The translations under genes were made by a program, and so were the position numbers. Below are positions 2,941 through 22,317 of a DNA stretch of 22,317 nucleotides, piece after piece. The stretch comes from a virus. Location of the stretch: positions 1-22,317 of IMG/VR virus record IMGVR_UViG_3300009790_000083, one strand, 5' to 3'. Every line of letters starts with the position of its first letter. Position 1 is the first letter of the stretch. Below the pieces are notes generated by a model, which had not been told where the DNA came from, did no database searches, and worked only from the letters and a program-made list of their open reading frames with translations.

Positions 2941-3241
2941 ACTAAAAGAAAAAGTAATGGAGAATGATATCTCTAAAGCATTATTATCAATTAACGATGT
3001 GTTATTGGCACTTGGTAAGCGTATTGAAGACTTAGAAAAGTACGTTTCAGAGTTACCTACCCCTGATAAGACATATTATCAACCAAAAGGGTATGAAGAA
3101 TACTTAAATATTAAGGGGAACTATGATGAGATATATCGTAGAATAACCGAATTGGAAGGTATGTCACATAAAGCACCTTCTACAGATCATGGTAAACGAC
3201 TTACTGCTCTAGAGGAAAAGATAGATGGGATGCAATCTTAA
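2933..3241 (+). CDS. Coiled-coil hypothetical protein (102 aa)
   Basis: Encodes 102 residues starting MGKLKEKVMENDISK. Residues 10-45 (ALLSINDVLLALGKRIEDLE) and 68-100 (IYRRITELEG, GKRLTALEEKIDGM) show heptad-like spacing of leucine and isoleucine, suggesting two coiled-coil helices around a tyrosine-rich linker. It overlaps the upstream gene by eight bases and the large virion gene downstream by 17, so it may be co-translated with, and possibly assemble with, that product. An ATG at 2957 would remove eight residues. No specific family is recognised. Confidence 0.7.
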   Translation: MGKLKEKVMENDISKALLSINDVLLALGKRIEDLEKYVSELPTPDKTYYQPKGYEEYLNIKGNYDEIYRRITELEGMSHKAPSTDHGKRLTALEEKIDGMQS

Positions 3242-5639: not shown

Positions 5640-5641
5640 AA

Positions 5642-6178
5642 ATGTCATCTCCAGCAGCAATTTATGGCGGTATGTGTAGTGGGCATGGTACTGGAATGTG
5701 TTCTTCACACCATCAAGGTTTAGGTGGTGGTATCCTTGGTGGGTGTCCTCACTCTCCTACCGACGCACGGATAATACCAGTTGCAGTAGCAGCGATGAAT
5801 GCTACTACGCTTTGGCCACCTTTAGTATTAGGTCCAGTTATGGCCTTTTCAAATGTGGTAATTAATGGTAGTATACCTATACGTGATCAAGATATTATCA
5901 CTCCTCATCCTACTGCCAGTGTACATGCTACAACATCTGCAGGATATAAGTGTTACTTTACTACAACAACCCCTGCTTGGCATTGTACAATAGGTGTTGC
6001 TGCTGGAAGAGAGACTGCTGCTGGACACTCAAGGAAGTTATTTGCGACAACTAAGACTGTTTGGATCAATGGGATGAGGGCAGGTAAGGTAGGTGATTTA
6101 TTAGGAGATGCTACTCCCGCATTTCCTTGTACATCTGTCGTAGCAAAAGGGAGTATTAATGTATTTGTTGGTGTTTAA
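5642..6178 (+). CDS. PAAR-like tail-tip (spike) protein (178 aa)
   Basis: Encodes 178 residues. Two copies of the PAAR-type strand-turn pattern are visible: VVINGSIPIRDQDIITPHP (residues 72-90) and VWINGMRAGKVGDLLGD (140-156), the latter close to the classic V-x-I-N-G-x-x-A-x-x-G-D form, ending with a beta strand SINVFVGV. PAAR proteins form a metal-stabilised cone that sharpens the tip of the phage central spike (gp5 in T4) or the T6SS VgrG. Candidate metal ligands include His37, His89, His95, His114 and Cys163. The N-terminus adds a Gly/Cys/His-rich stretch (Cys12, His15, Cys20, His23, His24, Cys35), more than a minimal PAAR domain needs. It starts two bases after the 804-residue virion gene and lies two bases before the next gene, so all are probably made together late in infection. 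Confidence 0.8.
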   Translation: MSSPAAIYGGMCSGHGTGMCSSHHQGLGGGILGGCPHSPTDARIIPVAVAAMNATTLWPPLVLGPVMAFSNVVINGSIPIRDQDIITPHPTASVHATTSAGYKCYFTTTTPAWHCTIGVAAGRETAAGHSRKLFATTKTVWINGMRAGKVGDLLGDATPAFPCTSVVAKGSINVFVGV

Positions 6179-6180
6179 TT

Positions 6181-6330
6181 ATGGCAAAATCTAGTACAGG
6201 TTCTTGGGCAACGGGAAATTATGTACCCGCAAGACCTAAAAAAACGAGACAAGGTAGGAGTCAAAACACAAATTTCTCTGCTTCTTCTCGAAATAACGCA
6301 AAAAAACGATATAGAGGTCAAGGAAGATGA
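6181..6330 (+). CDS. Small basic protein (49 aa)
   Basis: Encodes 49 residues starting MAKSSTGSWATGNYV and ending KKRYRGQGR. It is strongly basic (Arg/Lys-rich with almost no acidic residues) and low in hydrophobic residues, so it is likely disordered and able to bind nucleic acid or an acidic partner. It follows the PAAR gene by two bases and overlaps the heme oxygenase start in an ATGA (6327-6330). The tight junctions on both sides are the main evidence for a real gene. Family unknown. Confidence 0.7.
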   Translation: MAKSSTGSWATGNYVPARPKKTRQGRSQNTNFSASSRNNAKKRYRGQGR

Positions 6331-6974
6331 GTTTACGTGAAGCAACTGCTGAAAATCATAAAAATGCGGAAAAACAACCGTTTGTAGGCATTATGTTTGG
6401 TGGAAAACTGCCAGATGAGGTATATGCAATATATTTGTGGAATTTATACCTACAATATGAAACTTTAGAGACATTTGCTCACGAAGCTGGAGTTCTTAAT
6501 ACAGATGAACTAGCGGAATTGTATCGAGCACCTAAAATTAAGGAAGATTATAAGGAATTGTGGCACAGACCTACAAATCCACCTACTCTTCAGACTACTT
6601 TAGACTTTAAAAAGCATCTTCAGGGCATATCTGATGATCCAAAGGCACTTATGGCACATTGTTACACTCGTCACATGGGTGATTTGAGTGGTGGACAAAT
6701 GTTAAAAGCAAGAGTACCTGGTTCTGCTAGAATGTACGAATTTGAAAATACTGATGAATTAAAAGGAAAAATCCGTGAAAAACTCAGTGATGATCTTGAA
6801 GATGAGGTAAAAATCGCATATGACTTTGCTACTAAGATGTTTGCGGAGATGTTAATGTATCTTCCACCAGAATTACATAAACCTGCAGATGCACCTCCAG
6901 TAAATAAGGCAAATTCAGAAAGACCTGCGGATGGTGAAGTTTCTTGGGAACCTGAAGAGGAGGAAGAAGAGTAA
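6327..6974 (+). CDS. ho1: Heme oxygenase (biliverdin-producing), 215 aa
   Basis: Encodes a heme oxygenase, which opens heme to biliverdin, CO and iron using reduced ferredoxin in cyanobacteria; cyanophages use such enzymes for bilin synthesis. The N-terminal LREATAENHKNAE matches the proximal helix, making His11 the likely axial heme ligand. ALMAHCYTRHMGDLSGGQ (residues 107-124) is the family signature, with Asp119 equivalent to the catalytic distal-helix Asp. The residue before M-G-D is His where Tyr is usual. The catalytic core ends near residue 184, followed by a Pro-rich linker and an acidic tail (WEPEEEEEE) that I do not know from cyanobacterial HO1. It is somewhat shorter than the roughly 240 residues of cyanobacterial enzymes. 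The start overlaps the upstream gene in ATGA, with GAGG at 6314-6317. The neighbours are tail genes and an Fe(II) oxygenase, with no bilin reductase visible in the window. Confidence 0.88.
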   Translation: MSLREATAENHKNAEKQPFVGIMFGGKLPDEVYAIYLWNLYLQYETLETFAHEAGVLNTDELAELYRAPKIKEDYKELWHRPTNPPTLQTTLDFKKHLQGISDDPKALMAHCYTRHMGDLSGGQMLKARVPGSARMYEFENTDELKGKIREKLSDDLEDEVKIAYDFATKMFAEMLMYLPPELHKPADAPPVNKANSERPADGEVSWEPEEEEEE

Positions 6975-6976
6975 TT

Positions 6977-7588
6977 ATGGCAGTTGAAATGTTTAATCCT
7001 CGGTGGTATTATCGAGGAGATGTGAAACCTGAAGGTCAAAAACAAATTAAGGATTTATTTGAGAAATATTTAAATGATCCTCGATATTTCAATAAACCCG
7101 AAAGTTGGGAATGTACATGTTCAAGTTCTTGGGAAAGACCCGAAAATGAGGAACTTCCTTGGATACAATGGTTAGAGGTATTAAAACCTCATCTGAATGA
7201 ATTTGTAGAGGAAATGAAACCTAAAACACATATTCAGATAATTCCTCAACAAGCTTGGGCAAATCATTACGATACTGGTCATTATCAAGAATACCATAAA
7301 CATAGTGGTGTTTCTACTAATATCAGTGTTGTTTACTTTTATGATATTCCTGAAGATGATTGTGGGTTCAGATTTAATAATGATGAGTTCTATGAATACG
7401 ATGGTTCTGGGTTAGATTCCCTTTTTGAACTTCCTGTAGGGTTTTATGTAACACCAAAGGATATTAAAACTGGAAGTGTTGTGATGTTCCCCTCTCATTA
7501 TGCTCATTCTGTAGTTCCTAATAGGTCAAATAAGAGAAGAACTACCATGTCTGCTAATATATTCATAATTCCCCAAAATCCAGCATAA
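6977..7588 (+). CDS. 2-oxoglutarate/Fe(II)-dependent oxygenase-like protein (203 aa)
   Basis: Encodes 203 residues with the double-stranded beta-helix pattern of 2OG-Fe(II) oxygenases, closest by eye to the 2OG-FeII_Oxy_5 type common in cyanophages. EYHKHSGVSTNISVVYFYD (residues 105-123) carries an H-x-H pair (His107, His109) where most superfamily members have H-x-D/E. The distal ligand is probably His177 in FPSHYAHSVVPN, with Arg187/Arg188 placed to bind 2-oxoglutarate. Such enzymes hydroxylate or demethylate protein, nucleic acid or small molecules; the substrate here is unknown. The N-terminal 80 residues are helical and Trp-rich. It starts two bases after the heme oxygenase, whose acidic-tail codons supply GGAGG (6959-6963) upstream of this ATG. 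Both enzymes use iron chemistry and O2, but a functional link is inference. Confidence 0.75.
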   Translation: MAVEMFNPRWYYRGDVKPEGQKQIKDLFEKYLNDPRYFNKPESWECTCSSSWERPENEELPWIQWLEVLKPHLNEFVEEMKPKTHIQIIPQQAWANHYDTGHYQEYHKHSGVSTNISVVYFYDIPEDDCGFRFNNDEFYEYDGSGLDSLFELPVGFYVTPKDIKTGSVVMFPSHYAHSVVPNRSNKRRTTMSANIFIIPQNPA

Positions 7589-7618: not shown

Positions 7619-8038
7619 ATGGCATTCAAAGAGGTTACAGGTAAGGATTTAAAGTTATCTCGTAGTTTTAAAGACATAAACCTTAGTATGGGGAGTAATC
7701 CTTTTACTAAGGATGTTTCTGTGGTCAAAAATAATAATGCTATAAAACAATCCATACGGAATTTAGTTCTGACTTCTCCTGGTGAAAAATTATTTCAACC
7801 TTGGTTGGGATGTAGAGTAAAAGAGATGCTTTTCGAGCCTCTAGACATGTTTACGGCCCAAAGTATTCAAGATGAGATAATAAATACCATTAACCAACAT
7901 GATGAGCGTATACAGTTGCAAAGTGTAGAAGTTATCCCCAATATAGGGAATGACAGATTAAATATTAGTATTGAATATAAAATTGTAGGTATACCAATAG
8001 TTGAAACAGTCGATTTCGTACTACAGAGACCTGAATAA
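7619..8038 (+). CDS. 25: Baseplate wedge subunit gp25 (139 aa)
   Basis: Encodes the gp25-like baseplate wedge protein, length close to T4 gp25. gp25 forms the core bundle with gp6 and gp53 and is thought to start sheath assembly; it shares a fold with T6SS TssE. Visible hallmarks are the N-terminal strand with DINLSMGSNPFTKDVSVV, the helix NAIKQSIRNLVLTSPGEKLF (residues 40-59), and the loop FEPLD at 72-76, equivalent to the conserved E-P-R of the family with Leu in place of Arg. The C-terminal strands (residues about 100-137) end in ETVDFVLQRPE. The start is ATG 7619; AAGGGG at 7601-7606 is better spaced for an ATG at 7611, which opens only a 13-codon frame. The stop overlaps the gp6 start (TAATG). 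Confidence 0.93.
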   Translation: MAFKEVTGKDLKLSRSFKDINLSMGSNPFTKDVSVVKNNNAIKQSIRNLVLTSPGEKLFQPWLGCRVKEMLFEPLDMFTAQSIQDEIINTINQHDERIQLQSVEVIPNIGNDRLNISIEYKIVGIPIVETVDFVLQRPE

Positions 8039-10065
8039 TGCAACCGAATAATTTAACAGCATTAGATTTTGAAGATGTTAAAGCTTCCATTAAATCGTAT
8101 CTTAGAACTAGAAATGAGTTCTCTGATTATGATTTTGAGGGGTCTGCTTTATCTTATCTGGTAGATACTTTAGCATATAACACATATTATACGGCATTTA
8201 ACGCTAATATGTCGATGAATGAGGCATTTTTGCCGTCTGCTACAGTAAGGGACAATGTTGTTAATATTGCCAAACTTTTAAATTATGTCCCTAGATCAAT
8301 ACTTGCTTCTAAGGCATGTTTAACGTTCTCTGTGCAGACACAACAGACAAATGGGGCATATCCCTCAACTGTTACTTTAAGGAAAGGTCCAGTGGCATCT
8401 GGAGGTAATTTTATTTGGAATATTCTCGAATCAAAAACAGCAGAAGTTAATACTACAACAGGTGTTGCGTTATTTGATAATGTTGAGGTAAAAGAGGGAT
8501 CTATTATCAATTATGAGTATGTTGTTAATACATTCCAAACACAGAATTTTATAGTACCATCAGAAGACGTTGATATTAATACTTTAGTTGTTAAAGTCAA
8601 GGCAAACGAAACTTCTACAACATCCGACCTCTATAATAAGGTAGATACAGTTACTAATTTAACTGCTACTACAAGGGTTTATTTCCTCTCTGAAGGTGAG
8701 GATATGAGATATGAATTGAGATTTGGTGATGATAGTGTAGGTAGAAAACTTAAAGATGGTGAGGTTATCGAATTAGAATATCTGGTAACTTCAGGAACCG
8801 AAGCAAATGAGATTAATGATTTTGATTATATCGGTAATATAACTGATAATTTAGGTATTACCTATGCTACAGGAAATATAACAGTAGGTATGAAGCAAAA
8901 ATCCCAATTGGGTGAAATTGCTGAAACTATAGAATCTATCAAATATAATGCTCCAAGATACTACTCTTCTCAGTATAGAGCAGTAACAGCACAAGATTAT
9001 GCTGTTATTACTAAAAACATCTATTCTAATGCAGATAGTGTTATTGCTTATGGTGGAGATGCATTACAACCCCCAATTTACGGTAAAGTTTACATTGCAG
9101 TAAAAACTAAGACGGGATCTATGCTTAATGATGCAACTAAAAAGAGTATTGCTGCAGATCTTAGAAAATATGCGATGGCATCTATTGATCCTGTAATTAT
9201 TGACCCAGACGATCTATACATCTATCCAAAACTATTTGTTTTATACGATACTGGTGTTACCAATAATACTTCCCAAATAAAGACTGATATTCAATCAGCA
9301 ATTAATGATTGGGCATCTCAAACACAAATTAATAACTTTAACTCAACATTTAAGAGTCAACAATTCCAGAAAGCAGTTACTTTAGCAAATAAAGCAATTA
9401 GTGACGTTTCTCTTCAGTTGACTATCCTAAAATACATTAAACCAATCACTAACCAGACAAATACTTATTGTGTATCTACTGGTTCTAGTCTTTATAATAG
9501 TGCTCCGAGTAATACAGACGGAACAGCATGTAAGAAAGAACCTGTAATCCTCTCAGGAACCTTTAGAACTGCTGATAGACCAGGAATTGATCAACAGTTT
9601 GAAGATGATGGTTTCGGCAAACTCAGGACGTTTTATAACACAGGTAATAAGAAAGTTTACACTAATAACTCTGCTGGTACTGTAAATTATGATACTGGTG
9701 AAATTTGTATTGGACCAATTACTTGTGTAGGTGCTGGAGATGATGTCCCACTTACAACTAACTTAAATCTTACTGATAGTGTAACTGGAACAGGATCTGT
9801 TATTGATACTGGTCTTTTAGCGACTGATTTATCAATTCCTGTTCTATTCATACCGTCAAACATATCAGCAATTCCAGCATCAACCCCTGGAACTATTCTT
9901 AGTATTGTAAGTCCAGAAGTTACTGTAGCCGCTATTGGCACACCACCACCTTCGACTATACCACTAAATAGTTTGACACCAACAGTCTTCGCTCAACCAC
10001 CTACTACTATCGTGGTCGATGCTATAACCAACACTGGTTCACTAACCACTTCGAGTTGTTTCTAA
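8038..10065 (+). CDS. 6: Baseplate wedge subunit gp6 (675 aa)
   Basis: Encodes the gp6/baseplate-J-type wedge protein, the ring-forming structural core of the T4 baseplate. The N-terminus (residues 1-95) is characteristic: LTALDFEDVKASIKSYL, then DYDFEGSALSYLVDTLAYNT and NVVNIAKLLNYVPRS. Central beta domains include YELRFGDDSVGRKLKDGE (about residues 225-242) and the helical SQYRAVTAQDYAVITKNI segment (about 314-331). Residues 515-565 (ADRPGIDQQFEDDGFGKL, then NYDTGEICIGPI) look like the usual C-terminal domain. The last 100 or so residues are a Pro/Thr/Ile-rich low-complexity extension ending SSCF. Length is near T4 gp6 (about 660). It is coupled to gp25 by a TAATG overlap and followed five bases later by the giant gp7-like gene. 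Confidence 0.92.
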   Translation: MQPNNLTALDFEDVKASIKSYLRTRNEFSDYDFEGSALSYLVDTLAYNTYYTAFNANMSMNEAFLPSATVRDNVVNIAKLLNYVPRSILASKACLTFSVQTQQTNGAYPSTVTLRKGPVASGGNFIWNILESKTAEVNTTTGVALFDNVEVKEGSIINYEYVVNTFQTQNFIVPSEDVDINTLVVKVKANETSTTSDLYNKVDTVTNLTATTRVYFLSEGEDMRYELRFGDDSVGRKLKDGEVIELEYLVTSGTEANEINDFDYIGNITDNLGITYATGNITVGMKQKSQLGEIAETIESIKYNAPRYYSSQYRAVTAQDYAVITKNIYSNADSVIAYGGDALQPPIYGKVYIAVKTKTGSMLNDATKKSIAADLRKYAMASIDPVIIDPDDLYIYPKLFVLYDTGVTNNTSQIKTDIQSAINDWASQTQINNFNSTFKSQQFQKAVTLANKAISDVSLQLTILKYIKPITNQTNTYCVSTGSSLYNSAPSNTDGTACKKEPVILSGTFRTADRPGIDQQFEDDGFGKLRTFYNTGNKKVYTNNSAGTVNYDTGEICIGPITCVGAGDDVPLTTNLNLTDSVTGTGSVIDTGLLATDLSIPVLFIPSNISAIPASTPGTILSIVSPEVTVAAIGTPPPSTIPLNSLTPTVFAQPPTTIVVDAITNTGSLTTSSCF

Positions 10066-10070
10066 GTTAG

Positions 10071-13000
10071 ATGACAAATATCAATAAGGTTTCTCAGGCA
10101 ATTAATGCCCAAACACCTGAGTTTATCAGGAGTGATTATACTTTATTCAATAAATTTATTGAATATTACTATAGATCACAGGAAAAAACTGGTTTAGGGC
10201 AGAATTTACTTAACAACTTCCTTCAGTATCTTGATATTGATAAGTTGGATATTAGTATACTCGATGGTGCGACTAAGGTAGTAGAAGATGTAAAATCAAC
10301 AGACGAAACGATAGTAGTAGAATCAATTGATACATTTTTAGAGAAGAATGGATCAGTATTGATAGGTGATGAGGTAATATATTACGAGAAAACGACTTCT
10401 GCTCCAAATATAGCGTTAAGTCCAGGTATTTCATATAATCAGGTAAAATTAAAGTGGACTGGTCTTGCCAATCCCCTTAGATCTTTTGATGGTACAACTA
10501 GATCATTCCCATTAACTTCACAGAATAATCCAGTTGCTCCACCTTCTGCACAACACTTGATTGTTAGTGTTTATGGTGAAACTTTAATTCCAAATACTGA
10601 TTATACTATTAGTGGAACCAATATTGTATTTACAACTGCTCCTAGACAAAAATTAGCATCTGATGGAGAGAGTTTTACTTATATTACTTACTTAAGTGGT
10701 TTTGTTGAGAATACTATTGTTGGAACAGATAATATTTCTAATACTTTTGGTGATAATAAGAGACAATTTACTCTTACTAGGAATGGTGTAAGATATGCAC
10801 CAGAAATTACCGAATATGTTGTTGCTGTATATGATAATAAACTTTTAATACCTAAAGTAGACTTCTTCCTTGATGATGATCAGTTTATATTTAAAGATGC
10901 TCCTCTAAATGGTAGGGCATTATCAGTATATTGTATTGAGGCACCTATTCCTTCTTTCGGTTCTAATGCTGTAGGATATTCTCGTGTTAATGATGCTGGT
11001 AATGTTACTAGTATTGCAATTAACGCAAATGGTACTAATTATAGATTTGAGTATCCACCAAAAGTCTCTATTAACTCAGATACTGGTAGTGGTGCTTCTG
11101 CAACTGCTTTAGTTAATGGTATTAAGAGTGTTTCTCTTCTAGATGGTGGTAAAGGTTATAGTGATACTAACCCACCTACTGTTGTTATTCAATCTCCAAC
11201 TAAAACTGGATCTAGTATAGCATCTGTTAAGGCAACTGTTACTAATGGTGAGGTTTCTGGACTTGAAGTTACCAATTCTGGTAGTGGATATACTTTTACT
11301 CCTAGACTTACTTTCTTACAACCTGGCGGTGCTATATTAGGTGCTCCAACGGTTACTAGTGGTCAAATAACTGGTACTATACCAATTACTAATGCTGGTC
11401 AAGGATATACAACAGTTCCAACCATTTATGTTGATGAACCAACTGGTGCTAACCCAATTAAGGCAAATTTAAGAGCAGTTTTAACAGATGGAAAGGTTAC
11501 TGGTGTTACTATAATAAATGCTGGTCAAGGATATGAAACTGTACCTAGAATAGCAATTATCGACCCAGTTGGTGCTCAAATTCTTCAAACATCGGTTGAT
11601 GGTGATGGTCGTGTTATCAATATTGAGATTTTAAGTGGTGGTAGTGGATATGAAGATACTCCATCGGTTTATATTGTAGATGATAGAGTAAATGATCAAG
11701 GAACCTATATTGGTGGTACTGGAGCAACTGCTATAGCATCAATTTTCAATGGTCAGATCATTGATATCAATATTACCAACTTTGGTACTGGATATAGTGC
11801 TGTAACACCTCCTAAAATTGTAATTCAGGCACCACCTTCTGCAGAAGCATCTGCTACTATTGGTTTGAATGAAGTTACTGGATTTACTGTAAATCAGCAA
11901 GGTAGTGGATATACAAAGGCACAATTTGAAGGATGTGCTAGAGCAGCAAGTGCAATTAAGGAATATACCGAAGATGGTAACGCAGTATTCTCTAATAACA
12001 CTATTGCAGCAGCTGCAACTAAAGATACTGCTGTTAAGTGTCTAGATGCTGTATTTGTTAAAAGATTACTTGATAAGTACACAGAACAGTTCTTACCTGA
12101 TGTTCCTAGTTTAGATTATACAAAAATTGATGTTAGAAACTCCATTAAGACAATTAAGGATTTCTATTCATCTAAAGGTACTTCTTATAGTATTGCTTAC
12201 TTATTTAAGTTACTATATGGTGAAACAGTAAGTATTTCTTATCCAAAAGATCAAATAATCAAACCTTCTGATGCTACTTGGTCTATTGACACTATTCTTC
12301 GTGCAACTTTAGTTAGTGGCAATCCTGACAATATTAGAGATGGTTTATTAACTCAAGATGCTGATATTGCAGATACTAATGTATTAGCAGCAAGTGCTTT
12401 AATAGAAAACTTTATTTCTATTAAAACATCAGAAACAGAGATATTTGAGTTAGTTTTATCTGAAGAAACTATTTCTGGGACATTTACCGTACCTTATAAG
12501 ACAAGACTTGCCGAACCATTATCTACAACTGCTGGAATTATTACGGTTGACTCTACTATTGGTTGGCCAGAAAGAAATGGTGAATTTGTTATAGGTTCAG
12601 GTGCTACAGCAGAAATTGTACAATATAAGGAAAAATCACTTAACCAGTTTATAGAATGTACTCGTTCTGTAAATGGTATTGTTGAAGATTGGGATTCTGC
12701 TACTGAAATAGCATCAAACTTCAAAGTATATGTTAATAAAGGGACTTCTCAAGAAGTTGTGATGAATATTGTTGGTATTGTTGACGCAGAGCAAACAACA
12801 CTAACAGATACTGGATCTTACTACTTACCAGGTGATAAACTAACTGTTTCTAAGTTAGGTGGTACTGGTGATGGTTCAGACTTAAAAACTTGGTTATATA
12901 ACGTTAAAAAGTTGATTACTGTGACATCTATCAGTTATGGTGGTGTTAATAATCAATCTGCAACTGTTACATGTGCTAATGCTCATGGTCTTCTTGTTGG

Positions 13001-16000
13001 TGATCAGGTAACTGTATATGGTGCTAACCCTATTATCTACAACGGATCTTTCTTTGTAACATCTAGAGATAGTGCTACTGTTTTCCAGTATCAATTACCT
13101 CAACCTGCTACAGTTGTACCTCAAGGTAATATTCTTGTATCTGTTGACCTTAATAAAGGTAAGTCGGATAATACTGCTATTTTAAATGTTATTGGACCTT
13201 ATACAACTAACGTCCAGAATACATTTTTCAACGATACTCATGTATATGTTGCTTCTACAGGTATTCCAAACTATGAAATTGGACCTTTTCCAGGATCTGC
13301 TCTTCTTCCAGGTAACCAACGTAAATTAAATAGGTTCCCTAAGACTTCACAGACAATTTCAACTAAAAATTTAATATCAAGTAATGTACCTGTTGGTACA
13401 TGGGTAAACGGTGTTTCTATATGGTCTTATAAGTCTAAATTAACCAAAACCTTTGGTGCTGTAACTGCAATTGCAATTACTACAGCAGGTAAAGATTATG
13501 ATGCTGCTTCTCCTCCAGCTATGACAATAGATGGTGGTGGTGGATCTGGTGCTACTGCAAGTGTAACGGTTGATGGTTCTATTTCTGAAATAACAGTCAC
13601 ATCTGGTGGATCTGGTTATACATCATCACCATTGGTGTCTATAGTCGGTGGTAATGGTGCTGGTGCTGCAGCAACTGCTATTATTACTAAAGGTGTTGTT
13701 TCACGTATTCTAATTAATGATGGTGGTAAAGGTTATACTTCACAACCTCAAATAACAATTGTTGGAGGTGGTGGATCTGGTGCAAATGCTACAGCATCTG
13801 TTCGTGGTCCAATTAAATCTGTTGCTATTACAAGTGGTGGTGCATCTTATACTTCAGTACCAACAGTAAGTCTAAGTTCTGGTAGTGGTGCTGTTGCACA
13901 AGCAATTGTTAATGACGGTAGAATTATTTCTATTGCTATTATTTCTGCTGGATCTGGATATACTACTGCACCAACAGTAACTATTCAAGGTGTTGGATTT
14001 GGTGCTATTGCTAGAGCAACTATCGATACTGATGGAGAAAATGCTGGAAGAGTAACTAATATTGAGATTGTTAATAAGGGTATTAACTATGTTCAAGGAA
14101 CTACACTTATCAATTTAACTTCTATTGGATCTGAAGCTACTTTCACACCATCTGTGTTCCAGTGGACTTACAACCTTCAAGCAACATCGACATTTGATGC
14201 TGCGAAAGGTGCTGTATTTGAAGGTTATAATAACGAATATGGTGGTGAATATGCTCATTTATCCAATCCTCAAAAATTAAGATATATTCTCGGTGATAAC
14301 TTATTCCAAAATACAGATGGTGCTATTAAGGAACAAGAGACACAATTAGCACACTCACCTATTATTGGTTGGGCATTTGATGGTAATCCAATATATGGAC
14401 CTTATGGATATACTGATCCTACTGATCAAACCTCTACTATTACAAAATTAAACACATCATACAGATTAAAGACAAATTTAGTTTATGATGTAATCAACAA
14501 CCCATATCCTTCTAGAACTGCTGGTCCTCTTCTAACAGATGAAACTGCTGGTAATTTTGTTGAAGATTATGAGTATGTCTTTGGTTTAGGTGCTTTAGAT
14601 CAATATAATGGACGTTTTTGTAAGACACCTGACTTCCCAGATGGTAGATATGTATATTTTGTAACTATCGATGCTACAGAGGATGGTAATCCCCTATTCC
14701 CTTATGTTATTGGTCCTAGTTACAACTCTGTTGTTGATACTTGGAACTTAAGTCCTAATGCTATTCAACAGAACATTCCTACTGGTGTTGTTAGATATAG
14801 AGATCCATATGAGAATGTTGATATTGATGTTGAAAGAACTCCAAATGCAGCATCAAATGCATTAACTATGGAGAATGGTGATATTCTCTTATTTGATGCA
14901 GAGGATGATAACCGTGATGGTGTTATCGAATCTGATGAAGTACCAAGACAAATGTACGAGGAATCTCCTTTACAACTCTTTGATTACTTCCCTAAAGTTA
15001 AATTTGACTCTAAAGTTGATATTGAAGTTGAGACTACTACTAAATTTGAAGATGCATCTGTTACTGGATTTACAGTTGAAAACCCAGGTAAAAACTATCA
15101 GGTAGATGATCGTCTTGTATTTGATAATGCAGGTACTGATGGATCTGGTGTTTCTGCACGTGTTTCTAGAATTACAGGTGAAACAGTTTCTGCTTATACA
15201 TTTGAAAATATTAGTGGATTGAATTATGGTGTTCTAAAAACTGAGGTACCTCATAATATTGTTGCTGGTGATCAGGTATTTGTTGATTATACACCTATAA
15301 TGGCGAATACAAATAAGACATTTATTGTTCGTCAATTTAAAGGTATTGAGCAAATTGTCGTTGATCAAACAGGATCAGGATATAATACTGATATTCCTCC
15401 ATCAGTTATTATTGATGGTGATGGATCATCTGGAAAATTAGAAGCTATTGTTAGTTCTGTAGGATCTATTGATACTATTAATATCCTAAATTCAGGATCT
15501 GGTTATACTAAGAACCCTAGAGTTATATTAACTCATCCACAGATCTTTAAAAAGGCAGATTATTACATTTCTAAGATATCAAATAACAATTATGTTAGAA
15601 TTAATGATGTTCATGTAGCAGATAATAAAGAATCATACCTTTGTGGTATGACTAAGGATGCTAGTGGAAATCAAGTTGCTTTTGTTGCTAAAGTTTCAGC
15701 AACTGGTGTTAAGCAATGGGAAAGAACTTTAGAAAGTAATACAGGTCAAAATTACACCGAATTCCAGAAAATTTTCGTTGATGGTAATAATATATGGGTA
15801 GTTGGTGGTAATAAACCAAATGGTAATATGCTATCAGCATATAACCCTGATATAATCTTAGCAAAATATACACAAGCAGAAAATGGTCTAAGTGCTACAT
15901 TAACTTTCCAAAAGGGATATGCTGGTATTTCAGGTTCTACTCGTGCTGATTATGTAACTTCACTTAAGAAATATTCAGATACTCGTTTCATTATTGCTGG

Positions 16001-19000
16001 TTATACTAATACTAACTCAGGAGCTCCTTTTGATGCTTGGATTGCATCTATTGATACCACAGGTAATTTTGCTATTAAGAGAAAATTAGCAACTACTAAT
16101 GCATCTGAGAAAATTACAGATGTAATTGTTAATGGTACAGATATCTACTTGTGTATGGAAGTTGCTACAACTTCTACTGAAGGAGATGTTGATCCTGCCA
16201 TTGCTAAGGTAACACTTGGAGTAAATGCATTTACAGTTGATTGGATTAAGCAATACACAAATGTTCTTTATTCTACTCTTGATACAAGCATATGTATTGA
16301 TGAATTTAATGAAATCTATCTTACAGCAACTTTAAGACTTAAATCTGATGATACTACTAGAGATAGTTTCTGGGTAGGTAAAGTAGATGCTACAGGAGAT
16401 TTACTATGGAACTATCGTTATGTTGCTCCAGGTAGAGACATATCACTTGCTAAGAAATCTGTTATTGACATTTTTGGTGATTTAAACGTTGCATTTACTA
16501 GGACAAATAATACAAACACTTATAAGACTGTAGATTCAGTTAAAATTGGTTATGATGGTAAAGTTAAGAACCATAGTACAAATTCATTTACTAATGATAA
16601 TGTAGAAGGTCTTACTGTACATTCATTAGATGTTGATAATTCAGGTGATATCCATCTTTATGGACAGACTAATTACAATAGAAACGAATTTATATTTGAT
16701 TTTGCTAGTAACGAACTTGTTGATGTTACAGGTCATTACACTCTCAATAGTACAGGTGCAACTAATGCAATTACTCTTAGTGGTAATCTTGCTAAGATTT
16801 ACGGTTATAACCCTGCTGGACTTAATTCAAGTTGGATTAATGCTTATCTTGATGTATCTTCTGCTTCATTGGGTACAAAGTTAGGAAATGATTGGACTTT
16901 AGAATTCTTTGTTCATAGAGTAAGTTCAGAATCTCAAACTTTATCACAAACTAATCAAACTCTATTTGGTATCGGTGGAGCACAAGACGCTACTGGTGGA
17001 TTATGGTTAGGGTATGATATGAGTTCTGGTAAGTTGCAATTTGCAGCAACTAACAATACAACTGCATTAAGTGGTGCTACACCAGTAGAATCTACACAAA
17101 CCAACATGTTTGCTAACAATAGTTGGCAGGTTATTGGTGTTAAGAAAGAAGGTAACGATTTTAAAGTATATGTTAATGGTATTCAGGTAATTACTGGTAT
17201 TATTTCTAATACTGCTCTAGGTGGTAAGACATTATACTTTGGTAACCAAGTAGGCTGGGGTACTGGTGCTGGAGACTTTAAGAAAGAGAGACAAGGACAA
17301 TTCTATATTGATAATATTAGACTTAGAAATAGAGCAGTTGTACCAACAGTTCCTAATGATATTCAAAACTTACCTCCAACTGATACCTTTGCATTAGGTT
17401 ATACTTGGAATGATACATCATGGTTTACTACTAATTTAAACAGATATGATTATATCGATTATGTTGGTTGGGGATTAAAAGTTGATAAAGATGCTGATGC
17501 TGCAAGAATTGGTACTCAAAGTACTCAAACTAATACTCAAATTGGATTTACTAGAACTGCTGTAAGTCCTGTAACTGGAAGTGTATTAACTGTCACAACA
17601 ACTGGAATATCTCTAGCATCTGCTGGATTACAGTCATTGGATTATGATGATGCAACTATATCACTTCTTCAAGATACCGAGACATTAACTTACACTCAGG
17701 ATACATGGAGTTCTAGAACAGCAACAGTTCCTTCACCAGGTTCTCAAAAACTTAAGGTATCTGCTGTAGTTAAAGATCGTTACTTCTTCAAGGTTACAAA
17801 TACAATCAAAATTGACAATGTTCAAGAATTAACTGTAAATCAGGCATTTAACTTCACTGTTGGTGCAAAATTAAGATTGAATAATGATTCTGGTACATTT
17901 GTTAATAGTGGTTACATAATTAAGACAGATACTGTTAATAATAAGGTATATCTTGCTGTTAATAACAATGCTTGGTCAGACGATTTAAATACTGGAAAAT
18001 TAGTTACAGAACAGTTTAATGAGCAAAGTACTTATGGTATTGTAGGACCAATTCCAAATGATACTAATATTATACAGAATTATGTCTTTTCAATGGTCAA
18101 TAATACCACTCCTGGTACTTTTGACATAGATTTAGATGATTATAATTTAGATGGTACTGGTTATAATGCTGGTGGTGGTCAGAACCTAGATGGATTTGCT
18201 AAGTTTAAACCATTCCAAGTTGCTGATTATTCAGTTAAAATTGAGGAAGTTGCTGGTGGGTCACCATATATTGTTGGATCTGTTGTTAATATTGCTGCTA
18301 GTAATATTTCATTCAATGCAACATATACAACTGCTCAAGTTACAGGTCTAACTGCAGTTACTAAGATTACTTTAACTGCTAATTTAAATAAGACACTTCA
18401 AGTAACTGCTGTTGCTAATACTAATGAAGTATACGTTATTACAGCAACAAGTCATTATTTAAATAAGAGTGAAATAATATACGTTGATGGTAACCCATCA
18501 CAGACAGTTGGTGGTACTGTATACGATGAATATGATGGTGCATTTGCTGTAGATACTATAGTAAGTCCTTTAGAATTTACATATAAATTACCAACTGTTG
18601 CAATTACTGACCCTGCAACATCTGCAGGTACTGTAAGTATCTTTGTTAAGTCACCAACTCTTAAGATGTATTATGGTCATCAGTATTTGTTTGACCTAAG
18701 TCACTCTTCTCTTGTAGGTGGTAACTTATCCTTCTCTAAGGATAACTTATACAAACTAGAGTATTCATTCAACTCTATTGAAAGAATAGGTATTCCTGGT
18801 GTTACGGGTGGTGGACAACCAAGTCCTTCTGTTAAATTAAAAATTGATAAGGATATTGTTACTAATATTTCATATTACTTTGATCCATCTAGAACAGGAG
18901 ATACTTCACCTGTTGTTGCTGGTAGTTACTTAGATGTTGTAGAATCTCCTTATAAAGGAACCTTTGATATTACATCTACTTCAGGACAAACTATTACCAA

Positions 19001-22000
19001 AGGACCAGATACATTCAAATTCTTACTTGCTAATGAACCTGAAGGAAATGCTTCTATATCTCAAACATCTTATAGTACCAGTTCACTTAAAGCAGTTGGT
19101 TCTATAAACGCTATTAGAATTGTTAATCCAGGTGGTTTCTATACTAAGTTACCTATTGTTACTGGTATTACATCAACTAGAAAGATTGAACGAGCAACTA
19201 TTGAAGAACCAGGAACTGAATATGCTGTAGGAACTTATAATGGTGTTCCTATAGCTGGAGACGGTGAAGGTGGTCTTGTACAAATTACTGTTCAAGATGG
19301 ACTTGATGATGATGGTGTAACAATTCCAGGTCAAATTACTTCTGTTGTAGTTACTGCAGCAGGTAAAGGATATACTACTGCAACTGTAGACATTGATTCA
19401 GTACCAGGAATTCTTGGAGCTGGATTGACTGGATCAGGAGCAAAAGTAAATGTAATTATTCCACCTTTCGGTACTGAAGCATCTATCTTTACTAAAGGTG
19501 ATAAAGTTGGTAAGATTAAGAAACTTAAGAACAATAACTTTGGTTATGATTATCCTCATGACTATACTTTACGTCCTGAGATTACATTCCCATTAAATGC
19601 TCAGTTAACTTCTACAAGTATTCTTTCTAGCATTACAGTAACTAACCCAGGTTCTGGGTATTCATTAGCACCTGCTGTAATTATTACAGGTGGTGGTGGA
19701 ACTGGTGCTACTGCAGAATCGAGTATTAAAAATGGTCGATTAGATAATATTGTCGTTAAAGATCCTGGTGCTGGTTATTCATCAACACCAACTATTAGTT
19801 TGAGGTCTTCCTTTAACTATGTTGTAAACCTTGACTTAGGTTTATTACAGTTTGCTTATCCTCATGGTATTGTTAATGGTGCTGCAGTAAGTGTAGCAGT
19901 TACTGATACTGGAGATGGTGCTGATTTCCCTCTCGCTGCTGGTGCTATTGGTCGTCTTAACGCAACTACTACCTATTATGCAATTGCTGGTGCTGCAAAC
20001 TCATTAGAAGCAGATCAGTTAAAACTTGCTATTACTTCTTCTAATGCTGCTCTTGGAGATGCAATTTCCTTCGTTAACGCTGGTGAAGGTCGTCAGAGTG
20101 TATTAACCGAATCATTTGGTGGTGCTGCTGAAGCAAATGTTATTACTTCTACCTTCCTAGAAGGTGAATTAGTTTATCAGGGTGATACATTAGATGTTGC
20201 TACTGCAACTGGATATGTTTCTACAAACTCTGGTTGGCAGATTGGACCTAGAATTCTTAAGATTGTTGATTATACAGGAACCTTTGCTAATGGGCAAAAG
20301 ATTACAGGTGTTATTTCTAAGTCTTCTGGTACTATAAGTGATCTTAAAGTTGCTCGTGGTGTTCTAGAAATTGGTTCTATTACCAAAACTACAGGTCAGT
20401 TTATCGATGATGTTGGTAAACCATCTGAAATTATTCAAAAGATCCAAGACTCTTACTATTATCAGGACTTCTCTTATGCTGTTAAGTCTGCAGTTTCTAT
20501 TAGTGATTGGAAAGAAATTCTTATTAGAAACGTACACCCTGCATCATTTAAGGTATTTGGTGAGTTAAATCTTAACGAATATGGTCAAATTCCTAATAAG
20601 GATACCTTCTTCCAATTAACTAAGTCTGTTGAACTTGCACAAGAAGCAATTGTTCCTAATATTCAGAACTTTGCTCTAGTTGAACCAATATACACAGAGT
20701 TTAATAATACTGAGGTTTTATTCCGTCAGAAGAGATTGACATCTTCAGAGAACATTTTAACCTCTGTTGTACAACGTATTGATGATATTTCTAATCTATT
20801 TGATGGTGAAAGGATTGCATTCCCTCTAACTGTCAACCAAAACAACGTTGTTGCTAACGCTAATCAGTTAATGATCGTTCTTAACGGTGTTGTACAAAAC
20901 CCAGAGACATCATTTAATATCCAACAGGATTCTATAGTATTCAGCGAACCACCTTCACCACCTGCAAGTGTCAAGTATGCTAATATAACAGTTTCTCAAA
21001 TTCAAACTGTTGCTTTCACTTTCACTAATATTAGTGGTATTTTCCCTAATATTGGAAATCCTCTTGTTGGTAGTAGTTCAAATGCAAGATTAATCGTAAC
21101 TAACGTTACTGGTAATACTGTTTCTGGTTATATTACAGAAGGAACATTTGTTATAGGTGAATTAGTTAGTGTTGGTGCAACAGGGTTCTCTGCTATCTTA
21201 GCAACAAATACTGCTGTATCAAATATTGGTCTATTTACATTTGGTGAGAATGTAACTAACTTAACTGGAGATACTGCAAAAGTTGAACAGATTAACTTAG
21301 CAACAGGTCAAGAAACTCCATCAGCACAATTACGTTATGCAGTTGGACCTTCAACTACAAGTATTGAGGTAATTCCTTATGGAGGTGCTTCATTATCACC
21401 AGTTGCTGCTGGAACTTTTGAAACAACTAAGAATTATCAGTTTGGATCTGAGATATTCCTAGTCAATAGTATTACTGATAATGCAGAATCCACAACTCTT
21501 GGGGTATCAAGAGGACAGGTTGGAACTCAGGCAGTAGCACAACAAGAAAATACACCAATTTATAGCACTGTCATTGCTGTTACTAATTCATTAACATTAA
21601 GTAAGACTGCTGGTACATATAAGTCAACTCCTGGATTATTTGATATTCAGTTGAATGATGTTATAATTGGTGCTCAATCAGGGGTAGTTGCTAGTGTTGC
21701 ATCTACTAGTGCATATCAAGATCCTACAACTAATGAGTTTATAGGACAGGTTAATATTTCTCCTGGATCTTCTTTCTTTGGATTATTATTCAACAGAATT
21801 ACTTCTTCATCATATCCTAATGTTGTTCTTGATAACATTTCACAATCTCAAGTTAATGTTGTAGATTTCACTGATAATGCAACTGCATTTGACAGTAAGT
21901 TCCCTGCAAATGAATTAATCAATAATTACGTAATACCTTATGATAATGCTGTAGGAAGTATAGTTCAGGATGAATATGTACGTAATTACAAGATTAATTA

Positions 22001-22317
22001 TGGTAATAACGTTGGAGACTTTACTTCTGCAGAAGATGGAAGAGTAAGAAAACTATCTTTCTATGACAAGCAAGGAACTGGTTTCTTTAATAGTGGTCAA
22101 ATTATAAGAAGTAGAGATACTAAAGCAGAAGTTATTGGTTATAATCAAGCACGTGATATTGTTTATCTTGGTAAGATAGGCAGAACTCAGTCAAATGGTG
22201 AAGATTATTACAACTTTACCTTTAGTGCAGATGCTAAATTAGATACTACACAGAAGAAATTTGGTTTAACTTCATTAGAACTTGCTGCAGCAGATTATAT
22301 TAGCACTCCATCAACTA
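10071..22317 (+). CDS. Giant gp7-like baseplate/virion structural protein (at least 4,082 aa, 3' end outside window)
   Basis: I read this frame codon by codon from ATG 10071 to the right edge and found no stop. Three segments resemble the conserved C-terminal part of T4 gp7. Residues about 10-60 have TPEFIRSDYTLFNKFIEYY. Residues about 665-730 have KDFYSSKGTSYSIAYLFKLL. Residues 3461-3500 have YYYQDFSYAVKS and NVHPASFKVFGEL. Between and after them lie beta-rich modules: FDG-type modules (10470-10940 and near 20796-20998), G-x-G-Y repeat arrays, a YHYH domain (residues about 1375-1550), a propeller-like region (about 1829-2223), a LamG-like domain (about 2224-2427), a GHQYLFDLSHSS element (2869) and a second LamG-like start (from 4051). 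gp7 is a peripheral wedge arm in T4, and the gene position after 25-6 agrees. It begins five bases after gp6 with no clear ribosome binding site, suggesting coupling. No signal peptide is seen. Confidence 0.9.
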   Translation, partial: MTNINKVSQAINAQTPEFIRSDYTLFNKFIEYYYRSQEKTGLGQNLLNNFLQYLDIDKLDISILDGATKVVEDVKSTDETIVVESIDTFLEKNGSVLIGDEVIYYEKTTSAPNIALSPGISYNQVKLKWTGLANPLRSFDGTTRSFPLTSQNNPVAPPSAQHLIVSVYGETLIPNTDYTISGTNIVFTTAPRQKLASDGESFTYITYLSGFVENTIVGTDNISNTFGDNKRQFTLTRNGVRYAPEITEYVVAVYDNKLLIPKVDFFLDDDQFIFKDAPLNGRALSVYCIEAPIPSFGSNAVGYSRVNDAGNVTSIAINANGTNYRFEYPPKVSINSDTGSGASATALVNGIKSVSLLDGGKGYSDTNPPTVVIQSPTKTGSSIASVKATVTNGEVSGLEVTNSGSGYTFTPRLTFLQPGGAILGAPTVTSGQITGTIPITNAGQGYTTVPTIYVDEPTGANPIKANLRAVLTDGKVTGVTIINAGQGYETVPRIAIIDPVGAQILQTSVDGDGRVINIEILSGGSGYEDTPSVYIVDDRVNDQGTYIGGTGATAIASIFNGQIIDINITNFGTGYSAVTPPKIVIQAPPSAEASATIGLNEVTGFTVNQQGSGYTKAQFEGCARAASAIKEYTEDGNAVFSNNTIAAAATKDTAVKCLDAVFVKRLLDKYTEQFLPDVPSLDYTKIDVRNSIKTIKDFYSSKGTSYSIAYLFKLLYGETVSISYPKDQIIKPSDATWSIDTILRATLVSGNPDNIRDGLLTQDADIADTNVLAASALIENFISIKTSETEIFELVLSEETISGTFTVPYKTRLAEPLSTTAGIITVDSTIGWPERNGEFVIGSGATAEIVQYKEKSLNQFIECTRSVNGIVEDWDSATEIASNFKVYVNKGTSQEVVMNIVGIVDAEQTTLTDTGSYYLPGDKLTVSKLGGTGDGSDLKTWLYNVKKLITVTSISYGGVNNQSATVTCANAHGLLVGDQVTVYGANPIIYNGSFFVTSRDSATVFQYQLPQPATVVPQGNILVSVDLNKGKSDNTAILNVIGPYTTNVQNTFFNDTHVYVASTGIPNYEIGPFPGSALLPGNQRKLNRFPKTSQTISTKNLISSNVPVGTWVNGVSIWSYKSKLTKTFGAVTAIAITTAGKDYDAASPPAMTIDGGGGSGATASVTVDGSISEITVTSGGSGYTSSPLVSIVGGNGAGAAATAIITKGVVSRILINDGGKGYTSQPQITIVGGGGSGANATASVRGPIKSVAITSGGASYTSVPTVSLSSGSGAVAQAIVNDGRIISIAIISAGSGYTTAPTVTIQGVGFGAIARATIDTDGENAGRVTNIEIVNKGINYVQGTTLINLTSIGSEATFTPSVFQWTYNLQATSTFDAAKGAVFEGYNNEYGGEYAHLSNPQKLRYILGDNLFQNTDGAIKEQETQLAHSPIIGWAFDGNPIYGPYGYTDPTDQTSTITKLNTSYRLKTNLVYDVINNPYPSRTAGPLLTDETAGNFVEDYEYVFGLGALDQYNGRFCKTPDFPDGRYVYFVTIDATEDGNPLFPYVIGPSYNSVVDTWNLSPNAIQQNIPTGVVRYRDPYENVDIDVERTPNAASNALTMENGDILLFDAEDDNRDGVIESDEVPRQMYEESPLQLFDYFPKVKFDSKVDIEVETTTKFEDASVTGFTVENPGKNYQVDDRLVFDNAGTDGSGVSARVSRITGETVSAYTFENISGLNYGVLKTEVPHNIVAGDQVFVDYTPIMANTNKTFIVRQFKGIEQIVVDQTGSGYNTDIPPSVIIDGDGSSGKLEAIVSSVGSIDTINILNSGSGYTKNPRVILTHPQIFKKADYYISKISNNNYVRINDVHVADNKESYLCGMTKDASGNQVAFVAKVSATGVKQWERTLESNTGQNYTEFQKIFVDGNNIWVVGGNKPNGNMLSAYNPDIILAKYTQAENGLSATLTFQKGYAGISGSTRADYVTSLKKYSDTRFIIAGYTNTNSGAPFDAWIASIDTTGNFAIKRKLATTNASEKITDVIVNGTDIYLCMEVATTSTEGDVDPAIAKVTLGVNAFTVDWIKQYTNVLYSTLDTSICIDEFNEIYLTATLRLKSDDTTRDSFWVGKVDATGDLLWNYRYVAPGRDISLAKKSVIDIFGDLNVAFTRTNNTNTYKTVDSVKIGYDGKVKNHSTNSFTNDNVEGLTVHSLDVDNSGDIHLYGQTNYNRNEFIFDFASNELVDVTGHYTLNSTGATNAITLSGNLAKIYGYNPAGLNSSWINAYLDVSSASLGTKLGNDWTLEFFVHRVSSESQTLSQTNQTLFGIGGAQDATGGLWLGYDMSSGKLQFAATNNTTALSGATPVESTQTNMFANNSWQVIGVKKEGNDFKVYVNGIQVITGIISNTALGGKTLYFGNQVGWGTGAGDFKKERQGQFYIDNIRLRNRAVVPTVPNDIQNLPPTDTFALGYTWNDTSWFTTNLNRYDYIDYVGWGLKVDKDADAARIGTQSTQTNTQIGFTRTAVSPVTGSVLTVTTTGISLASAGLQSLDYDDATISLLQDTETLTYTQDTWSSRTATVPSPGSQKLKVSAVVKDRYFFKVTNTIKIDNVQELTVNQAFNFTVGAKLRLNNDSGTFVNSGYIIKTDTVNNKVYLAVNNNAWSDDLNTGKLVTEQFNEQSTYGIVGPIPNDTNIIQNYVFSMVNNTTPGTFDIDLDDYNLDGTGYNAGGGQNLDGFAKFKPFQVADYSVKIEEVAGGSPYIVGSVVNIAASNISFNATYTTAQVTGLTAVTKITLTANLNKTLQVTAVANTNEVYVITATSHYLNKSEIIYVDGNPSQTVGGTVYDEYDGAFAVDTIVSPLEFTYKLPTVAITDPATSAGTVSIFVKSPTLKMYYGHQYLFDLSHSSLVGGNLSFSKDNLYKLEYSFNSIERIGIPGVTGGGQPSPSVKLKIDKDIVTNISYYFDPSRTGDTSPVVAGSYLDVVESPYKGTFDITSTSGQTITKGPDTFKFLLANEPEGNASISQTSYSTSSLKAVGSINAIRIVNPGGFYTKLPIVTGITSTRKIERATIEEPGTEYAVGTYNGVPIAGDGEGGLVQITVQDGLDDDGVTIPGQITSVVVTAAGKGYTTATVDIDSVPGILGAGLTGSGAKVNVIIPPFGTEASIFTKGDKVGKIKKLKNNNFGYDYPHDYTLRPEITFPLNAQLTSTSILSSITVTNPGSGYSLAPAVIITGGGGTGATAESSIKNGRLDNIVVKDPGAGYSSTPTISLRSSFNYVVNLDLGLLQFAYPHGIVNGAAVSVAVTDTGDGADFPLAAGAIGRLNATTTYYAIAGAANSLEADQLKLAITSSNAALGDAISFVNAGEGRQSVLTESFGGAAEANVITSTFLEGELVYQGDTLDVATATGYVSTNSGWQIGPRILKIVDYTGTFANGQKITGVISKSSGTISDLKVARGVLEIGSITKTTGQFIDDVGKPSEIIQKIQDSYYYQDFSYAVKSAVSISDWKEILIRNVHPASFKVFGELNLNEYGQIPNKDTFFQLTKSVELAQEAIVPNIQNFALVEPIYTEFNNTEVLFRQKRLTSSENILTSVVQRIDDISNLFDGERIAFPLTVNQNNVVANANQLMIVLNGVVQNPETSFNIQQDSIVFSEPPSPPASVKYANITVSQIQTVAFTFTNISGIFPNIGNPLVGSSSNARLIVTNVTGNTVSGYITEGTFVIGELVSVGATGFSAILATNTAVSNIGLFTFGENVTNLTGDTAKVEQINLATGQETPSAQLRYAVGPSTTSIEVIPYGGASLSPVAAGTFETTKNYQFGSEIFLVNSITDNAESTTLGVSRGQVGTQAVAQQENTPIYSTVIAVTNSLTLSKTAGTYKSTPGLFDIQLNDVIIGAQSGVVASVASTSAYQDPTTNEFIGQVNISPGSSFFGLLFNRITSSSYPNVVLDNISQSQVNVVDFTDNATAFDSKFPANELINNYVIPYDNAVGSIVQDEYVRNYKINYGNNVGDFTSAEDGRVRKLSFYDKQGTGFFNSGQIIRSRDTKAEVIGYNQARDIVYLGKIGRTQSNGEDYYNFTFSADAKLDTTQKKFGLTSLELAAADYISTPST
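10144..10165. repeat. 22-bp perfect palindrome inside the giant gene
   Basis: The 22 bases centred between 10154 and 10155 are perfectly self-complementary (core TTCAATAAATTTATTGAA). They encode LFNKFIEY, part of the first gp7-like segment, so protein constraint explains the codons but not the symmetry. The palindrome lies 73 bases after the start codon. It could form an mRNA hairpin or bind a dimeric protein, or be chance in AT-rich DNA. Confidence 0.6.
11019..11925 (+). repeat. Array A of G-x-G-Y beta repeats
   Basis: At least seven protein repeats of 39-48 residues occur here, each with a pattern like V-x-I-x-N-x-G-x-G-Y-x-x-x-P-x-I-x-I followed by a G-A-x-A strand. The Gly of the G-Y turn falls at 11154, 11286, 11403, 11529, 11646, 11790 and 11907. 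Adjacent units keep nucleotide identity, for example the same 18 bases at 11391-11408 and 11517-11534, 126 bases apart, suggesting fairly recent tandem duplication. A regular beta structure is inferred. Confidence 0.75.
13464..14115 (+). repeat. Array B of G-x-G-Y beta repeats
   Basis: Six units of about 35-38 residues, with turns AGKDY, GGSGY, GGKGY, GGASY, AGSGY and KGINY, separated by glycine-rich G-G-G-G-S-G-A loops. It is more regular than array A and lies directly before the YHYH domain, perhaps as a stalk holding it. Confidence 0.75.
14190..14715 (+). other. YHYH-type domain inside the giant protein
   Basis: Residues about 1375-1550 contain SPIIGWAFDGNPIYGPYGY (from 14355) and NGRFCKTPDFPDGRYVYF (from 14607), followed by FPYVIGPSY. 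These match the hallmark motifs I know from YHYH-domain proteins (G-x-A-x-D-G-x-P-I-Y-G and a later N-G-R-F...Y...Y-F element). The function of YHYH domains is not established; several occur in phage structural and bacterial secreted proteins. Confidence 0.75.
15066..15540 (+). repeat. Array C: three dispersed G-x-G-Y-type repeats
   Basis: Three repeat units with turns PGKNY, TGSGY and SGSGY. The first is separated from the other two by a PHNIVAGDQVFV module of the kind also seen near 12966 and 18440. This short array links the YHYH domain to the propeller-like region. Confidence 0.6.
15555..16740 (+). other. Propeller-like region of the giant protein
   Basis: Residues about 1829-2223 show repeated blade-like strands: IWVVGGNKPNG, FIIAGYTNTNSGAPFDAWIA, IYLCMEVATT, EIYLTATLRL and FWVGKVDATGDLLW, each followed by a short A-K-x or K-x-D turn. 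This recalls SBBP/Kelch-like beta-propellers. Blade count and closure cannot be judged by eye. Confidence 0.5.
16740..17350 (+). other. LamG/concanavalin-A-like domain of the giant protein
   Basis: Residues about 2224-2427 contain DWTLEFFVHR, then NSWQVIGVKKEGNDFKVYVN, LYFGNQVGWGTG and GQFYIDNIRL. This series of strands is typical of Laminin_G_3-type jelly-roll domains, often used for carbohydrate or surface binding. A second copy appears to begin at 22221 (ADAKLDTTQKKFGLTSLEL) and runs off the window. Confidence 0.7.
19095..19800 (+). repeat. Array D of G-x-G-Y-type repeats
   Basis: About five units with turns PGGFY, PGTEY, AGKGY, PGSGY and PGAGY, the third enclosing a longer acidic loop (QDGLDDDGVT). 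It precedes the third gp7-like segment by roughly 210 residues. Confidence 0.65.
20796..20998 (+). repeat. FDG-type fibre module, third copy
   Basis: LFDGERIAFPLTVNQNN, then QLMIVLNGVVQNPETSFNI and SIVFSEPP form a module (about 65 residues) that also occurs twice near the N-terminus: 10470-10695 (SFDGTTRSFPLTS, LIVSVYGETLIP) and 10735-10942 (TFGDNKRQFTLTR, YVVAVYDNKLLIP). Such modules are frequent in cyanophage tail fibre proteins, as I recall. Confidence 0.6.

Follow-up and report, generated by a model that had tools for sequence, protein, structure and literature searches.

A giant gp7-type baseplate wedge protein of a T4-like marine cyanophage, with its core split into three segments

A giant frame at the gene 7 position

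The giant reading frame that follows the gp25 and gp6 genes of a T4-like marine cyanophage is homologous to the baseplate wedge protein gp7 of T4, and it carries three segments of the gp7 core in order, separated by very large insertions. It is very probable (roughly 0.88 by our estimate) that this frame encodes the gp7 of the phage, with a split core of ~200 residues expected to act as the wedge scaffold and inserts that may act as host-contacting arms. The window, meaning the whole stretch of DNA that was analysed, is a virus record of 22,317 bases and a fragment of such a phage. Its nearest named phages by megablast were Prochlorococcus phage P-RSM4 and the cyanophages S-TIM4 and S-SSM5 (~74.7% identity over 64% of the window), all of which are T4-like marine cyanophages, with P-RSM4 filed under Kyanoviridae.

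The gene for a gp25-like baseplate wedge protein or sheath initiator (7619..8038, + strand; PF04965, 54.9 bits; phrog_261, E 1e-61) is followed by that for a gp6-like baseplate wedge subunit of 675 aa (8038..10065, + strand; PF21379, 61.7 bits; phrog_219, E 2e-227). The giant frame starts with an ATG at 10071 and is free of stops for 4,082 codons up to the window end (10071..22317, + strand), where it is cut off, giving a gp7-type wedge protein of at least 4,082 codons. In T4, gene 7 is located directly after gp6, and the giant occupies the same place after gp25-gp6. The same order of gp25, gp6 and then the counterpart of the giant was found in all examined relatives that have an annotated gp25/gp6 neighbourhood.

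The initial annotation had described an uninterrupted frame of at least 4,082 codons after gp25-gp6, and this was confirmed by the ORF, by Pfam and PHROGs, and by alignment with an IMG/VR relative, G001. This alignment was gapless over all 4,082 codons, with 95.6% amino-acid identity and a dN/dS of 0.155, indicating that the giant frame is a genuine gene and is subject to purifying selection. The complete orthologous frame in G001 encodes 7,974 aa (853 kDa); for scale, and with no claim to a size record, a survey of huge phages gave predicted proteins of up to 7,694 aa (PMC7162821). Between the window and G001 there were no amino-acid changes in core segments 2 and 3, while the inserts were 91-97% identical; as these segments have only 90 codons each, their invariance is supportive rather than strong.

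Other genes of the window lie 5' of gp25. A gene for an 804-aa protein (3225-5639), filed as 'baseplate wedge subunit' (phrog_719), is followed by a match to a PAAR-motif family (phrog_281; 5642-6178). The wedge label of the 804-aa protein is doubtful, because phrog_719 weakly matches the repeats of the giant and Pfam found no domain in this protein, which may belong to the spike. A heme oxygenase-like gene (6327-6974; PF01126, 75 bits), likely a host-derived metabolic gene, is located between the tail genes, and a 2OG-Fe(II) oxygenase-like gene (6977-7588; PF13759; phrog_81) is found just 5' of gp25.

Profile evidence for the three core segments

Core models assigned residues 7-52, 661-731 and 3452-3502 of the window protein to the three segments. 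The intervening stretches of 608 and 2,720 residues are close to the spacing of about 600 and about 2,750 proposed from inspection of the sequence. The equivalent segments of T4 gp7 occupy residues 647-687, 693-765 and 849-897, with gaps of 5 and 83 residues, and are preceded by an N-terminal part of 646 residues. The window was among the seeds of the core models, so the E-values that these models give for seed members are not independent. The profile comparisons below were run with hhalign, in place of HHpred.

Core segment 1 (residues 5-66; 10083..10268, + strand) is predicted to form a helix-turn-helix, as expected for the core-bundle helices of gp7, and matched minimal gp7 proteins at E 5e-10. 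Against T4-type gp7 this segment alone reached only about 0.006-0.012, below significance, so on sequence grounds it appears to be linked to T4 gp7 only through intermediates. Core segment 2 (residues 656-745; 12036..12305, + strand), with the motif DFYSSKGT...YLFKLLYGE...YPKD, gave E-values of 7e-10 against T4-type gp7 and 2e-13 against minimal gp7, and residues 682-729 matched the Pfam family PF23786 (Baseplate_wedge) at 31.6 bits with a cut-off of 27. For core segment 3 (residues 3448-3508; 20412..20594, + strand), which carries the motif YYQDFSYAVKS...W...VHPASFKVFGE, the values were 1e-6 and 1e-9, respectively.

A scan of the giant was performed with 69 overlapping tiles of 115 residues, each compared with gp7 profiles. 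The only strong matches to the Straboviridae gp7 profile were from the segment-2 tiles (E 3e-11 and 4e-10) and the segment-3 tile (3e-6). With the minimal-gp7 profile, the strong matches were segment 2 (2e-14), segment 1 (5e-10) and segment 3 (5e-8), in order along the protein. The proposal that three segments stand at these places and in this order was therefore borne out, as the scan found only those regions.

When the segments of ten Kyanoviridae giants, including that of the window, were joined, they aligned with the gp7 core of Straboviridae over 185 columns (5-202 against 42-292; E 3.1e-13), and with minimal gp7s at E 3.7e-28. The native order ranked top of the six permutations of segment order, and the reversed sequence of the joined core gave E-values of 0.66 and 0.005. 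Because pairwise hhalign E-values cover one comparison each, the tile and reversal controls matter here. The permutations also revealed that much of the joined score comes from segment 2, and the assignment to gp7 rests for this reason on the order of the segments and on the intermediates, and not just on the joined score. The profile match expected by the initial annotation thus held for the joined segments and for segments 2 and 3, but not for segment 1 alone against T4.

For the minimal family itself, hhalign to the gp7 core of Straboviridae gave E 1.2e-6 across 174 columns. The best PDB match of this family was T4 gp7, a weak one (E 0.018; residues 650-759), with a second, sub-threshold stretch of T4 gp7 at 851-892, in the right order. 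A phmmer search of the giant itself against PDB sequences gave nothing at E 1. When whole records were searched with the minimal-gp7 profile, the giant or its post-gp6 counterpart was the sole protein matched in P-RSM4, Syn9, S-SSM7, HTVC008M and Melnitz-1, as was gp7 in T4; no second gp7 was found by profile in these five complete records, the window being a fragment.

The domains that accompany the core in T4 gp7 were also searched for. PF21428, PF21427 and PF21456 (Gp7 helical, V and VI) all match T4 gp7, and none was found in the giant at E 1e-3. The N-terminal ~640 residues that characterise T4-type gp7 (phrog_964) were not detected, as the giant begins at segment 1. The suggestion that the core was kept while huge inserts entered its loops is supported, with the qualification that the giant should not be described as a T4-type gp7 carrying inserts.

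In the structure predictions the core had low confidence. AlphaFold of a minimal gp7, run with a shallow alignment of 17 sequences, had a mean pLDDT of 34.7, and in a single-chain model of residues 1-810 of the window protein core segments 1 and 2 were below 50. The latter low values may reflect a core that folds only together with gp6. The same model contained helices at 4-64, beta structure at 68-640 and helices at 660-780, with a pLDDT of 85-93 over ~350-590, within insertion 1. A Foldseek search of this model against the PDB had a single hit with E <0.001, to immunoglobulin domains of contactin, which was dismissed as not meaningful (probability 0.23; TM 0.07-0.09).

Insertions, C-terminal extension and the size series at the locus

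Insertion 1 (residues 67-655; 10269..12035, + strand) is all-beta in the model and had no similarity to gp7 in the tile scan. Insertion 2 (residues 746-3447; 12306..20411, + strand) separates segments 2 and 3 and consists of beta-rich modules. It contains a YHYH domain (residues 1355-1535; 14133..14675, + strand; PF14240, 111.5 bits with a cut-off of 25), a type of domain for which other work proposes activity as a tail-associated metal-dependent hydrolase, this function being only a prediction (PMC7824862). In P-RSM4 a hypothetical protein of 1,380 aa, encoded between gp9 and gp8 (37166-41308), bears a further YHYH domain (60 bits), which makes two in the same tail operon. A possible laminin-G/lectin-like module lies further along insertion 2 (residues 2307-2393; 16989..17249, + strand), with a weak PF00054 match below the cut-off (E 0.09). 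PDB searches with alignments of the inserts (YHYH; residues 1765-2125; residues 2125-2345) gave nothing convincing.

Just before segment 3 there is a beta module (residues 3362-3427; 20154..20351, + strand) that aligned at T4-core columns 208-235, the place expected for domain V of T4 gp7. Its hhalign E-value alone is only 0.012, and the alignment is suggestive of an equivalent of domain V. Beyond the two loops, the C-terminus is a third site of expansion, starting at residue 3509 (20595..22317, + strand), with at least 580 residues in the window, 3,102 in P-RSM4 and 4,472 by the core models in G001 (~4,470 residues). The extension of G001 includes many repeats and a laminin-G/lectin domain at residues 4074-4214 (PF13385, 81-85 bits). 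After this lectin domain, and beyond the point at which the window ends, a long run of imperfect repeats carrying the motif [ST]L.F.C (14 matches) occupies residues ~4300-6200 of the G001 giant.

Similar short modules were observed in the giant after core segments 1 and 3, at residues 139-195 and 3567-3628. They recur near the C-terminus of the P-RSM4 giant (window residues 136-407 against 6299-6570, E 7e-8), and this similarity suggests an internal duplication of modules at the insertion sites.

The counterparts of the giant after gp6 form a series from 316 to 7,974 aa, whose anatomy is given here from the core models as three lengths: those of the first gap (segments 1 to 2), the second gap (segments 2 to 3) and the C-terminal part. 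The smaller ones are those of C48C1 (316 aa; 12/12/120), YB07 (503 aa; 0/264/65), Melnitz-1 (896 aa; 104/394/224), HTVC008M (1,016 aa; 123/527/204) and S-B68 (1,915 aa). Mid-size counterparts were found in S-SSM7 (3,007 aa; 105/2196/539), S-PM2 (3,048 aa; 117/1597/1181), Bellamy (4,067 aa; 118/2239/1552) and ACG-2014f (4,225 aa). The largest are in Syn9 (6,076 aa), P-RSM4 (6,603 aa; 608/2720/3102), S-WAM1 (6,737 aa; 622/2812/3134) and G001 (7,974 aa; 608/2720/4472), and the window protein has 608/2720 followed by at least 580 residues. For T4 the figures are 5/83/135, with 646 residues ahead of segment 1.

The small homologues carry the core without large interruptions, and in C48C1, whose homologue has 88 related stretches in IMG/VR, the core is uninterrupted. 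Insertions are confined to two fixed loops and the C-terminus, and the core is kept over a ~25-fold range of size. From the sequences of this series, Straboviridae and marine phages appear to have enlarged one core of ~200 residues at different places, the former at its N-terminus and the latter in two loops and at the C-terminus. The small form of gp7 could be ancestral, and the gp7 orthologue of Vibrio phage XM1, at 242 aa, supports this view (PMC10457771).

Alternative readings and comparison with known systems

The scaffold of the wedge is a (gp6)2-gp7 heterotrimer, common to TssF2-TssG of the T6SS (PMC6300606). The core of the giant would pair with two gp6 chains in such a scaffold, with six copies per baseplate, while two loops of the core and its C-terminus have come to accommodate very large beta-rich modules (YHYH, lectin-like and repeats). 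Judging from these domain types and by analogy, the inserts could be exposed at the baseplate periphery as covalently built-in, host-contacting arms, standing where simpler phages hang separate spikes on gp7 loops and where T4 has domains V and VI. T4 genes 10, 11 and 12 have been reported missing in cyanomyoviruses (PMC2984593), and the inserts may therefore do their work. Tentatively, wedge scaffold and host recognition could have been merged in one chain of 6,000-8,000 residues, whose inserted modules would do the work of gp10-gp12 (pins and short tail fibres) and could pass receptor contact directly to the core that triggers contraction of the sheath. If this were true, each virion would have a built-in adhesin of ~5 MDa (six copies of 853 kDa).

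Published work describes these phages differently. According to a comparison of pelagimyophages, neither they nor cyanomyophages have T4 gp7, its place being taken by VrlC, a large protein of the baseplate whose gene lies further downstream (PMC7029224); in the main comparison of cyanophages, gp7 is grouped with the non-cyanophage core (PMC3037559). The giant would then be an unrelated structural or fibre protein, in line with the annotation of the Syn9 giant as 'putative fiber'. This is very unlikely, given that the gp7 profile matches the post-gp6 giant in P-RSM4, Syn9 and S-SSM7, and a 1,016-aa 'putative structural protein' in HTVC008M. The VrlC of HTVC008M had no match to the gp7 profile and contains a DUF4815 domain instead, leaving VrlC unsupported as a substitute for gp7. 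These results contradict the statement that gp7 is absent.

Even if derived from gp7, the giant might have lost or come to share its wedge role and now be mainly a fibre with the core segments as relics, since the core accounts for ~200 of 4,000-8,000 residues and was not modelled with confidence by AlphaFold. We regard this as improbable, because a core without any amino-acid change in segments 2 and 3 between the window and G001 is kept across a ~25-fold size range, and no other gp7 was found in the complete relatives searched. A short convergent motif (DFYSxKG...) in place of homology is hardly credible: direct BLASTP of the window protein against T4 gp7 was indeed limited to the second segment (56% identity over 27 residues, E 0.15), but three segments occur in order, their joined core reached E 3e-13 with a negative reversed control, and intermediates connect both ends.

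Assignment of the giant as the gp7 of this phage also bears on existing annotations. Some relatives are already labelled gp7 or wedge initiator in GenBank, and close orthologues of the giant are otherwise called 'structural protein' or 'putative fiber'; against the assignment, the PHROGs category of the family is 'head and packaging'. The minimal gp7 of C48C1 (1850-2800; phrog_460) is annotated 'head closure Hc2', the same label as that of phrog_3465, which the HTVC008M counterpart matches over its full length, and this looks like a propagated misannotation. In S-SSM7 two genes are annotated gp7 (15584-24607, and 25673 onward), of which the gp7 profile matches the first only. A Stenotrophomonas phage gp7 was tabulated at 4-7% identity with cyanophage counterparts (PMC5349666), and no description of a split core was found in the open-access literature. 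Correction is offered here for records labelled 'head closure Hc2', 'putative fiber' and 'head and packaging'.

T4-like phages of marine origin rank among the most abundant viruses. Their baseplate had been described as being without gp7. With gp7 located in the largest gene, the (gp6)2-gp7 rule for the wedge would be restored for these phages. The series at one locus represents a structural core that has stayed conserved even where thousands of residues interrupt it, and the two loops and the C-terminus are sites to inspect for host-range determinants.

Compared with T4 gp7 (PDB 5IV5/5HX2; 1,032 aa), the giant has the locus after gp6 and the three ordered core segments in common. Two expansion sites are also shared, as domain V of T4 gp7 (766-861) is located between segments 2 and 3 and domain VI (920-1012) is C-terminal. 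They differ in that T4 gp7 has the 646-residue N-terminal part and gaps of 5/83, whereas the giant begins at segment 1 and has gaps of 608/2,720. P-RSM4 PRSM4_106, Syn9 gp101, the S-WAM1 giant and phrog_701 are orthologues with identical insertion points and inserts of near-equal size; identity to the window in aligned stretches (BLASTP) was 73% for P-RSM4, 65% for Syn9 and 42-45% for S-WAM1. These three giants have other C-terminal extensions, and are labelled only 'structural protein' or 'putative fiber'. S-SSM7 SSSM7_101 and the counterparts in ACG-2014f and Bellamy (3,007-4,225 aa), which are gp7 or 'baseplate wedge initiator' in GenBank, have the locus and the core in common with the giant, but a much shorter insertion 1, of about 105-118 residues, and an insertion 2 of ~2,200. 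The locus after gp6 and the core are also shared by C48C1 YFHUAIHA_CDS0192 (316 aa) with its relatives and by YB07 (503 aa), which lack large insertions.

In Vibrio phage XM1, by its published description, the wedge is of the (gp6)2-gp7 type, and the gp7 orthologue gp17 (242 aa) likewise holds host-contacting parts at a loop and at the C-terminus; the loop 80-106 and the C-terminus 201-242 lie within the density of the tail spikes, with one set of six spikes on each (PMC10457771). The spikes of XM1 are separate proteins on short loops, whereas in the giant the host-contacting modules would be built into the gp7 chain.
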